NCBI GenBank assembly: GCA_030833825.1
Contig: JAURGL010000002.1
Location: 1-35,494 of the forward strand
Reading direction: 5' to 3'
Origin: Vulcanococcus sp. SFB_649D_100_25
GTDB taxonomy: Bacteria; Cyanobacteriota; Cyanobacteriia; PCC-6307; Cyanobiaceae
DNA: 35,494 bases
In this document: positions 4,802-12,533 of the stretch, piece by piece
Numbering within the stretch: position 1 is the stretch's first letter
Layout of the letters: every line of letters starts with the position of its first letter
The notes under the pieces: model-generated
Databases searched by the model: none
What the model saw: the letters and a program-made list of their open reading frames with translations, nothing else
Told to the model about the DNA's origin: nothing
Position numbers and translations under genes: made by a program

Positions 4802-5212
4802 TCAGTCGATCGGGCTGTTGCCCTCGCCTTCCATGGGCAGCAGCCAGATCGATCCGGTTTCCTTGTGGATTTCAATCTTGAATTCCTGGCCCGGCTCAAG
4901 CCCCATGCGGCGGGTGTAGGCATTGCCGATCAACAGGTTGCCGTTGCCGTGGACGCGGGTGCGGAATTCGGCTTGGCGACCTTTGCTGCCCCCACCACCA
5001 CTGGATGCGACCTGGCTGGGAAGGGTGTACCCCTTGGCCTCCACCAGGGCCCTGTAGAAGCTCTTTTTCAGCAGGCGGCCACTCGGACCGACATAACCAC
5101 AGGCCCGGGCAATCTGATCTTCAGGGCGATTGCTCAATGAGCGCGCTTTATCAAGCAGCGCCTTGCCTTGCAGCATCTCGATTGGCTTGCTGGTCTTCTC
5201 TTCGACGAACAC
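4802..5212 (-). CDS. cyAbrB-type (AbrB-like) transcriptional regulator (start could be internal, near 5176)
   Basis: GKALLDKARSL…ARACGYVGPSGRLLKKSFYRALVEAKGYTL plus C-terminal AbrB-like GNLLIGNAYTRRMGLEPGQEFKIEI. Confidence 0.85.
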   Translation of the reverse strand: MFVEEKTSKPIEMLQGKALLDKARSLSNRPEDQIARACGYVGPSGRLLKKSFYRALVEAKGYTLPSQVASSGGGGSKGRQAEFRTRVHGNGNLLIGNAYTRRMGLEPGQEFKIEIHKETGSIWLLPMEGEGNSPID

Positions 5213-5302: not shown

Positions 5303-5896
5303 TCAGAGCAGATAGAGGATGCCGTAGAGCACGACCCAGATCCCATCCACGAAGTGCCAGTACAGCTCGGCAGCTTCCAAGGGAAAGAGGTTGTGGCTGC
5401 TGACGCGGCCGCCTGAGCGGGATTGCCACCAGACAATCAGGATCATCAAGCCCCCCAGCGTCACGTGCAGACCGTGGAAGCCGGTGATGGCGTAGAAGGT
5501 GCTGGCGAACAGGTTGTCCGTCAGACCGAAGGGAAGGGTGAAGTACTCCTTCATCTGCCCAGCCAGGAAGGCAAATCCAAACGCTGCTGTCACCAGTAGC
5601 CAGCGACGGGCCAGGGGACGGTTGTCCCGCTTCATCGCGGACCCGGCCCGATGGAAGGTGAAGCTGCTGGCCAGGAGCAGCAGGGTGTTGATGGTCGGAA
5701 GGACCAGCTCCAGCTCGTAGGAGGAGCCACTGGGCAGGGGGTTCACCGCCCGAAAGGTGAGGTAGGCGGCAAAGAAGCCCGCGAAGGTCATCCCGTCTGC
5801 CACCAGGAAGGTGGCAAGACCAAACATGCGGTGATCGGCGTGCGCTTCGTGCTGCTGCTCGCTGACGCTGGGGCTGGAGGTGGAGAGGGTGGTCAT
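5303..5896 (-). CDS. ctaE: Cytochrome c oxidase subunit III
   Basis: HRMFGLATFLVADGMTFAGFFAAYLTFRAV…ITGFHGLHVTLGG…AAELYWHFVDGIWVVLY. Confidence 0.95.
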   Translation of the reverse strand: MTTLSTSSPSVSEQQHEAHADHRMFGLATFLVADGMTFAGFFAAYLTFRAVNPLPSGSSYELELVLPTINTLLLLASSFTFHRAGSAMKRDNRPLARRWLLVTAAFGFAFLAGQMKEYFTLPFGLTDNLFASTFYAITGFHGLHVTLGGLMILIVWWQSRSGGRVSSHNLFPLEAAELYWHFVDGIWVVLYGILYLL

Positions 5897-7590: not shown

Positions 7591-7594
<4 letters not shown>

Positions 7595-8421
7595 GACTGC
7601 ACCGGGGTGACGTCGCTGGCTGAGGCGATGGGGCTGTTCTGGTTGACCCAGGCCTGGAAGGTCTCGGGCTCATCAACGATCACGGTTGAGCGCATACCAC
7701 CGTGATACGGACCGCAGAGTTCGGCGCAAACGATCGGGTAGCGGCCGGGGCGCGTCGCCGTGAAGCTCAGCAGGGTTGGCTGGCCAGGGATCACATCCTG
7801 TTTGAGGCGAAATTCTGGAACCCAGAACGCATGGATCACATCATTGGCCTGCATGTGCAGAGCGATGGGTTGGCCCGCTGGAACATGCAGTTCACCGGAA
7901 GTGATCTCTGCATTGGGGTAGTGGAAGATGAAGGCGAACTGCATCGCTGTGACATCCACGGTCAACGGGGCGATGCCGCTGTCTTGATCGAGGCTCACAG
8001 GGCTAATGCCGGCCCAGGTGTGCTCCTTGGAGGCCATGGCATGCATGCTGTGGTCGTTGAGGGGTGCCATTCCCCCCATCCGGTCATAGATGTCGTAGCT
8101 GTAGATGCCGACGAACAGAACCACCACGGCGGGGATGGCGGTCCAGAGAATCTCGAGGGGCAGATTGCCTTCGATGGCCGCGCCATCACTTTGATCTCCC
8201 TCCCGTCGCCGGAAGCGGACCAGGCTGTAGACGATCAGCCCGACGATCCCGACAAACAGGATCGTGCCAATGCTGAACAACACCTTGAACAACTCGTCGT
8301 AGACGGGCGCATTCGCGCTGGCGTCAACGGGAAGCAGGTTGATGTTCTGGCCAACCCAGAGGCCGGCCAGCACCAGCACCATGCCCGTGATCAGGGTGAG
8401 GATTGCGGCTGGGATCCGCAT
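7591..8421 (-). CDS. ctaC: Cytochrome c oxidase subunit II
   Basis: CuA site CAELCGPYHGGM, two N-terminal TM segments; 4-nt ATGA overlap with ctaD. Confidence 0.96.
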
Positions 8422-8450
8422 GGTCCTGAAAGCGATCGGGATCAGCCTAT

Positions 8451-8588
8451 GGATGCCATCCGCAGAACGCGCCGTTCTTGCTGCTTTGCAGCAATCGCCT
8501 GGTTTCCCGTGAGGGAATCCTCACGGGTTCATCACTGATGGTGTCGCTTTGACCTGGGTTGGTCCCCGCTCCAGCGCTCATGGAGCGG
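8451..8588. promoter_or_regulatory. Cluster of perfect inverted repeats in divergent ctaC/ctaA intergenic region
   Basis: 8451-8461 GGATG-C-CATCC; 8464-8478 AGAACG-CGC-CGTTCT; 8478-8494 TTGCTGC-TTT-GCAGCAA; 8506-8527 CCCGTGAGG-GAAT-CCTCACGGG; 8566-8588 CCGCTCCA-GCGCTCA-TGGAGCGG. Confidence 0.6.
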
Positions 8589-8627
8589 CATCGTTAGTTT
8601 GACGCCAACCGCATCAGCAGCTGCTCT

Positions 8628-9533
8628 GTGGTGAGCGTCAGCCTCCAATCCAGTCGCGGTCGGCGCGATGGCCTCGCCGCCTTCAGCGCTCATCTGCTGG
8701 TGGCCCTGATTGCCCTGGTGGTGGTCGGCGGGGCTACCCGGGTGATGGAGGCGGGTCTGGCCTGCCCGGATTGGCCCCTTTGCTACGGCTCCTTCCTGCC
8801 TGGCCAGCAGATGAATCTGCAGGTCTTCCTGGAGTGGTTCCATCGCCTCGACGCCTTTGTCGTTGGGGTGGGCTTGCTGGTCCTGACGACCGTGAGTTGG
8901 TGGTGGCGTCGGGAACTGCCGCGTTGGTTTCCCCCGGTCGCCACCCTCGCCCTAGCACTTGTCGCAATCCAGGCCGGGCTGGGGGCACTGACGGTGACCC
9001 TGCTGTTGCCGTTCCCGGTTGTCACCGCACATCTGTTGACGGCCTTGTTGCTTGTGGCCTTGCTCAGCGGAGCGACCCAGGCCCTGTGGCGCTCAGCAGG
9101 GCCCTCGGAGTTGCGGCCTGCCAAGAGCCAATCCCACCGCTGGTGGTCCTGGTGGGCGGCCGGCTCTGCTCTGCTGGTGTTGGCTCAGTGCCTGCTCGGC
9201 GGACTGATGGCCACCCAGTGGGCCGCAGGGCGCTGCATCGGCAGCGGCGATGGCTGCGAGTGGTTGCTCCTGCATCGCCTCGGTGCCCGAGCTGTCGGGT
9301 TGCTGGTGCTCCTGCTGGCCGCGGTCTGGAGCTGGAAGCGCCCAGCCGATCGCTGGCTGGCGGCGGCTTCGGCCCTGATGGTGCTGCTGCAGATCGCCCT
9401 GGGGGTTCTCAGCCTGCGTTTCAGCCTCTCGGTGCCCGCCATCACCATTGCCCATCAGCTCGGGGCTGCCCTTTTGGTGGCCTTGCTGTCTGCCCTTGTG
9501 GTCCGCAGCGGGCCGGAGCTCATCCATGGCTAA
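8628..9533 (+). CDS. ctaA: Haem A synthase (COX15/CtaA family)
   Basis: [26 protein letters not shown]…[14 protein letters not shown]…[16 protein letters not shown]. Confidence 0.93.
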
Positions 9534-10579: not shown

Positions 10580-11623
10580 GTGACCAAGGCGGCAACCCAT
10601 CCGGTGCTGGAGCTGGAGAACGTCTGCAAGCGCTTCGGCAAAGGGGAGAAGTCCGTTGAGGCCCTACAGGGACTGACCCTGTGTGTTCCCCGCGGCTCAC
10701 TGTTCGGGTTGCTGGGCCCCAATGGAGCGGGGAAAACAACCACCCTGCGGATCCTGGCCACCCTGCTGGCCCCCTGCAGCGGGAGCGTGCGGGTCGCAGG
10801 GGTGGATGCCCTGAAGGATCCCCGTCAGGTGCGGGAGCGCCTGGGGTATGTGGCCCAGGAGGTGGCCCTCGACAAGATCCTCAGTGGACGGGAGCTGCTC
10901 CAGCTCCAGGGAGATCTGTATCACCTGCAGCGCAGCCAGCGCGATCAGCGGATCTCGGAGCTGATTGAGCTGCTGGCGATGGGGGATTGGATTGACCGGC
11001 GCAGTGGCACCTACTCCGGCGGCATGCGCCGTCGTCTGGACCTGGCCTGTGGACTGCTGCATCGTCCGGAGGTGCTGGTGCTCGATGAACCCACCGTCGG
11101 CCTCGATATCGAAAGCCGTGCCGCGATCTGGGCGGTGCTACGGCAGTTGCGCGACCAAGGCACAACGGTCCTGCTCAGCAGCCACTACCTCGAGGAGGTG
11201 GATGCCCTGGCCGACCAGCTGGCGATCATTGAGGGTGGTCGTGTGATTGCCGCTGGTCAGCCGTCTGAACTCAAGGCTGCCTTGGGGGGCGATCGGGTCA
11301 CCTTGCGGGTGCGTGAATTCAGTGATGAGCCCGAGGCCCTGCGGGTGCAGCAACTCCTCCAGGACTGCCCGGGGGTGCGTCAGGTGGTGGTCAACCGGGC
11401 CCAGGGTTATTCCCTGAACCTAGTGGTTGAACATGACGGCGTGGTGGAGCAGTTGCGGCGTCAGCTTGCGGAGGCCCAGCTGCCCGTCTTCGCCCTGGCC
11501 CAGAGCCGCCCCAGCCTGGATGACGTGTATCTGCAGGCCACCGGTCGCACCTTGATGGATGCCGAGTTGGCCGTCGCCGGCAGCAGGGACCCCAAGGCCG
11601 AGCGCAAACAGTCGATGCGCTGA
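10580..11623 (+). CDS. ABC transporter ATP-binding protein (DrrA-like exporter family)
   Basis: Walker A GPNGAGKTT, signature YSGGMRRRLDLA, Walker B VLVLDEPTVGLD. Confidence 0.95.
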   Translation: MTKAATHPVLELENVCKRFGKGEKSVEALQGLTLCVPRGSLFGLLGPNGAGKTTTLRILATLLAPCSGSVRVAGVDALKDPRQVRERLGYVAQEVALDKILSGRELLQLQGDLYHLQRSQRDQRISELIELLAMGDWIDRRSGTYSGGMRRRLDLACGLLHRPEVLVLDEPTVGLDIESRAAIWAVLRQLRDQGTTVLLSSHYLEEVDALADQLAIIEGGRVIAAGQPSELKAALGGDRVTLRVREFSDEPEALRVQQLLQDCPGVRQVVVNRAQGYSLNLVVEHDGVVEQLRRQLAEAQLPVFALAQSRPSLDDVYLQATGRTLMDAELAVAGSRDPKAERKQSMR

Positions 11624-11666
11624 TCGCTTCTTCGTTCTCTCCCTTTGTTCGATTGCTCCGATCCCG

Positions 11667-12533
11667 ATGACCAGCGCCACCCCCTCCCTGCTTAGCCCTG
11701 ACGCCGCTGCGGCCGGTCACCGTTCCCCCCTGGCCGATCTGACGCAGGAAACCCTGGCCCTAACGAGGCGCCTGTTCCTGCAGCTGGCGCGCAGACCATC
11801 GACACTCGTGGCCGGGGTGCTGCAACCCCTGATCTGGTTGATCCTGTTTGGGGCCCTGTTCGCCAATGCCCCAGAGGGACTGCTGCCGGAAGGGATGAGC
11901 TACGGGCGTTTTCTGGGGGCAGGGGTGATCGTCTTCACCGCCTTCAGCGCAGCCCTCAACGCGGGTCTGCCGGTGATGTTTGACCGTGAATTCGGTTTTT
12001 TGAATCGCTTGCTGGTAGCACCGCTGCGGTCCCGTAGCTCGATCGTGCTGGCTTCGGTGCTCTACATCACCTCCCTCAGCCTGGTGCAGAGCGTGGCGAT
12101 CATGGCCACCGCCTGGGCCCTGGGTTATGGCTGGCCTGGCGGGGCTGGATTGCTGCTGGTCCTCTTCACCCTGCTCCTGCTGGTCTTCGCGGTGACGGGC
12201 CTCAGCCTTGGGCTGGCCTTTGCTCTGCCCGGGCACATCGAGTTGATTGCAGTGATCTTCGTGGCCAACCTCCCGCTGCTGTTCGCCAGCACCGCCTTGG
12301 CCCCGCTGTCGTTCATGCCGGCCTGGCTGGGCTGGCTAGCGGCCCTGAATCCCCTTACCTTCGCGATTGAACCCATTCGTGCTGCCTACGCCGGCCACTT
12401 CTCCCTGTCCGCGGTTGTGTTGGAGGCTCCCTACGGGGCCGTCAGTGCCGCCGGTTGCCTCGGGGTTCTGGCTGCTTTGGCACTCGGGTTGTTCCTGCTG
12501 ATCCGCCCGTTGCTGGATCGCAAGCTCGCCTGA
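11667..12533 (+). CDS. ABC-2 type transporter permease
   Basis: Directly downstream of the ATPase; RRPSTLVAGVLQPLIWLILFGALFA and multiple TM segments; ATG at 11667. Confidence 0.9.
   Translation: MTSATPSLLSPDAAAAGHRSPLADLTQETLALTRRLFLQLARRPSTLVAGVLQPLIWLILFGALFANAPEGLLPEGMSYGRFLGAGVIVFTAFSAALNAGLPVMFDREFGFLNRLLVAPLRSRSSIVLASVLYITSLSLVQSVAIMATAWALGYGWPGGAGLLLVLFTLLLLVFAVTGLSLGLAFALPGHIELIAVIFVANLPLLFASTALAPLSFMPAWLGWLAALNPLTFAIEPIRAAYAGHFSLSAVVLEAPYGAVSAAGCLGVLAALALGLFLLIRPLLDRKLA

Follow-up and report, generated by a model that had tools for sequence, protein, structure and literature searches.

Cyanobacteria switch their respiratory oxidase according to light and the time of day. The consensus site is TGTGA-N6-TCACA for CRP and GTA-N8-TAC for NtcA. 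In Synechococcus elongatus PCC 7942, the genes for cytochrome c oxidase belong to the early-dusk genes (PMC5785211); a review counts ctaAB and ctaCDE of this strain among the targets of RpaA and gives the HLR1 box of RpaB as KTTACAWW-N2-KTTACAWW (PMC13421787). A paper on cyanobacterial CRP mentions neither cta nor cytochrome genes. A literature search found no paper that names an oxidase control site in Cyanobiaceae.

The locus considered here lies in a window of 35,494 nucleotides from Vulcanococcus sp. SFB_649D_100_25 (contig JAURGL010000002.1). The gene for cytochrome c oxidase subunit II, ctaC (7591..8421, minus strand; Pfam COX2_TM and COX2), and the haem A synthase gene ctaA (8628..9533, plus strand; Pfam COX15-CtaA; start GTG at 8628 or 8631) diverge from a gap of 206 nt, with the starts at 8421 and 8628 and the gap length all as given in the initial annotation. 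This divergent layout is present in several lineages of the class. Downstream of ctaE (5303-5896), on the strand shared with ctaCDE, lies a gene for an AbrB-like (cyAbrB type) regulator (4802-5212, minus), which occupies the same position after ctaCDE in 10/10 family genomes checked, spanning several genera; its co-transcription with the oxidase operon and a regulator role over that operon are possible. Genes for an ABC-transporter ATPase and an ABC-2 permease are found by Pfam 3' of ctaA-ctaB (10580-12533, plus).

Five dyads are present in the gap at the positions reported earlier: 8451-8461, which has a 5-bp stem and a 1-nt loop, and 8464-8478, 8478-8494, 8506-8527 and 8566-8588, with exact stems of 6, 7, 9 and 8 bp, respectively. 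Stems of 6 bp or longer number four in the gap vs. 0.31 expected (P 0.0002, 5000 dinucleotide shuffles), so that the idea that shuffled sequence might give a comparable dyad density is not borne out. Among stretches of 206 nt taken from the actual contig, only 0.7% reach this number of such stems, and 1.6% contain a stem of at least 9 bp. No T-run follows the two strongest dyads, as had been observed before, and a terminator scan of the gap likewise returned no match; a terminator reading of the dyads was rejected.

Homologous ctaC/ctaA gaps were drawn from named genome contigs and family genomes. Dyad conservation was followed in an alignment of 16 gaps (the window alongside 15 relatives), and family-wide word and matrix counts were made in 57 non-redundant ctaC/ctaA gaps. 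In the alignment, dyad 8451-8461 is intact in the window alone, and dyad 8464-8478 keeps 1-3 of its six pairs in every relative. Dyad 8478-8494 keeps 6/7 pairs only in L033, the closest relative (CtaC 94% identical), and 1-4/7 elsewhere, its right half being conserved and its left arm diverging. Dyad 8566-8588, which falls where the gap is least conserved, keeps at most 4/8 pairs and is mostly absent in seven of the 15 relatives. These four dyads fail in L033 or in the next-closest relatives. Dyad 8506-8527 turned out to be the only one with conserved sequence under both arms: GTG...CAC is kept almost everywhere, and the outer and inner pairs break. When 21 relatives are scanned, 11 stems of at least 6 bp are seen vs. 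7.1 expected, which is near chance, and the sole stem recurring in place is that of the 8506-8527 site, in L033 and L004-L006. The five dyads, which the initial annotation implicitly treated as one feature, are not confirmed as such: lack of conservation in relatives, named there as grounds for abandoning the idea, applies to four of them and not to 8506-8527, where primary sequence is kept. As a cluster, the dyads are peculiar to the window's genome. The cluster is without importance in itself; the comparison with relatives removes most of its interest, and the interest that remains is modest.

Conservation in the gap is of primary sequence and falls into separate blocks. Identity to the window is 0.55 over the whole gap and 0.31 over 8551-8589, vs. 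0.85 in the ctaC -10 box, 0.88 in block B and 0.84 in the core of block C. The predicted ctaC -10 box, TAGGCT (8444..8449, minus), lies within CCATAGGCTG, its 0.85 being the column identity in the alignment of 16; the extended box CAGCCTATGG occurs with at most one mismatch in 36/57 family gaps, whereas no 10-mer exceeds 11 in shuffles. Block B, CTTTGCAGCAATC (8484-8497), precedes the inferred ctaC start by about 50 bp. Block C (8508-8527, plus), a putative transcription-factor site with the core GTGAGGGAATCCTCAC, forms the core of dyad 8506-8527, and block D, ATCACTGATGGTGTCGCTTT (8531-8550), is conserved in the nearest relatives only. The predicted ctaA -10 box is TAGTTT, of the TANNNT type (8595-8600, plus), in ATCGTTAGTTT; the region 8590-8600 has an identity of 0.78, and the TA is invariant in all 16 sequences. 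Both -10 boxes were called from conservation alone, and a promoter scan of the gap did not find a full sigma-70 promoter. Transcript starts are predicted near 8437 (minus) and 8607 (plus); if the two boxes are real, these starts leave all five dyads outside both transcripts.

Element C, as block C is called below, recurs in most ctaC/ctaA gaps of the family, almost always in one orientation, and shows primary-sequence conservation above its surroundings in orthologous promoters. Its general form is TGTGNGGGATNGCTCATC, the window having the core given above and the marine form being TGTCAGGGATGG...GATT; GTGAGGGAATGCTCACC and GTGTGGGATTGCTCACC are variants found near the window. In a Cyanobium-like group, the 20-mer TGTGCGGGATCGCTCATCTG is identical in several genomes and precedes the ctaA -10 box by 31 nt. 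An untrained k-mer count reveals GTGCGGGATTGC within one mismatch in 14/57 gaps, with any shuffled 12-mer reaching at most 5. A weight matrix, which was trained on the same gaps as those scored, finds element C at scores exceeding the 99% shuffle level in 41/57 gaps, L102 being the single exception in orientation. The centre of the element, GGGATTG, is about as well conserved as the dyad arms. Together with the fixed orientation, this suggests a site of weak or no symmetry that is read by a protein, not a hairpin. Beyond the nearest relatives the element is only weakly symmetric, and its distance to the ctaA -10 box varies from 31 nt to about 86 nt, which makes a single fixed mechanism for both genes uncertain. 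Outside the family, a class-wide search gave no convincing element C. Beyond the ctaC/ctaA gap, no clear further targets appeared in the window's own genome, in 151 family genomes or in nine chosen genomes; element C-like words elsewhere in genomes are few, mostly within open reading frames, and few go beyond the control. A regulon-wide operator is ruled against, since the element is not visibly repeated upstream of other genes. Some gaps carry additional words. In L008:1292-1558, L009:1295-1561 and L010:2334-2600, which form a sister group, a second inverted repeat, GATTGCA...TGCAATC, comes after element C; the window lacks it. In the gaps L045, L049 and L030, from marine and related forms, the stretch from the ctaC -10 box to element C holds a conserved word, GTGATTGTTAA, and the stretch from element C to the ctaA -10 box holds words resembling TGTTGCAGAC.

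We consider it likely, judging from these sequence comparisons, that the gap is a bidirectional promoter with one conserved transcription-factor site. Such a promoter would drive ctaCDE leftward and ctaA-ctaB rightward, each gene side having its own -10 box nearby, and conserved double-stranded DNA elements, chiefly C, would lie between the boxes. Element C is probably a docking site for a gene-control protein, and the transcription factor that would most likely bind there may regulate the oxidase subunits and haem A synthesis jointly. In the window's lineage the element is near-palindromic by happenstance, hence its appearance as a 9-bp dyad, and the remaining four dyads are not maintained. 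The initial annotation held that conserved primary sequence would support protein binding, and by that reasoning the conserved part is a putative protein-binding site. The operator option proposed there survives for dyad 8506-8527, on account of the primary sequence conserved family-wide, and lacks support as a "dense array", the other four dyads being unconserved. An array with one operator per dyad is accordingly a very unlikely reading: the dyads are indeed denser than in shuffles, but four of the five lack conservation, and no clear excess of dyads is seen in relatives. It is somewhat less improbable, though still unlikely, that all dyads including 8506-8527 arose by chance or lineage drift and that the conservation is merely that of a core promoter. 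Four dyads do behave in this way, and multiple testing over the 35-kb window reduces the surprise of the cluster. However, element C is at least 58 bp from either -10 box in the window's clade, yet few stretches are as well conserved, and it recurs throughout the family.

A structured 5' leader or a small RNA transcribed from the gap, also offered initially, appears highly improbable. Both strands of the window's gap fold better than shuffles (z of -3.0 for the plus and -5.2 for the minus strand), and z falls to about -3 for the minus strand of a few relatives, but most relatives have z between -2.2 and +1.6. The helices are broken in relatives, and pairs changed on both sides number 13 vs. 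12.7 in shuffles. The overall covariation score does exceed the shuffles, 6/500 of which reach it, an excess that, by the covariation tool's own warning, relatedness alone may yield. It is owed mainly to helices 2 and 5, where most of the both-side changes fall and where the alignment is weakest, between one third and almost one half of the cells being unpaired. Compensatory change keeping the helices was looked for in the aligned relatives, and no helix gave a convincing case. RNAalifold applied to the aligned gaps finds almost nothing (scattered short pairings, -5.7 kcal/mol), and an Rfam search of the gap gave no match to a described RNA family. Moreover, the dyads lie upstream of the predicted starts, and the predicted leaders are merely about 15-25 nt long. 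With pairing lost in relatives and no convincing covariation, a structured leader or small RNA is unsupported.

The likely bidirectional promoter is an ordinary one, and its conserved element is family-specific. An element of 16-20 bp common to freshwater and marine lineages offers a small, testable handle on oxidase control. Tentatively, element C could be bound, across the picocyanobacterial family, by a regulator that serves the terminal oxidase and haem A synthesis exclusively and is used at a single place per genome, although we regard this as rather doubtful. The site of a global regulator should be enriched genome-wide, and the lack of clear enrichment of element C counts against such a regulator.

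Among the described systems, HLR1 of the OmpR-type regulator RpaB resembles the present case as an element conserved in a promoter; elements B and C differ from it in having no TTACA direct repeats. An RpaB HLR1 site was rejected, as inspection by eye found no KTTACAWW direct repeat with 10-bp spacing. The GTGA...TCAC arms of element C in the window's clade are reminiscent of CRP, but the spacing, GTGA-N8-TCAC, is two bases longer, and unlike an NtcA site the element has no GTA/TAC; CRP and NtcA sites were both rejected by eye on these mismatches. The Rre1 motif GTNCGGK fits the Cyanobium form GTGCGGG of element C, whereas the window form GTGAGGG does not fit. RpaA or RpaB may be considered as candidates because the Synechococcus elongatus homologues of these genes appear among the listed RpaA targets; of the regulators described in the literature, the clock regulator RpaA is the best candidate here. 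In this respect the locus is comparable to the RpaA-controlled dusk promoters of ctaAB/ctaCDE (coxBAC) in PCC 7942, where the genes are homologous and RpaA control has been reported (PMC13421787, PMC5785211).
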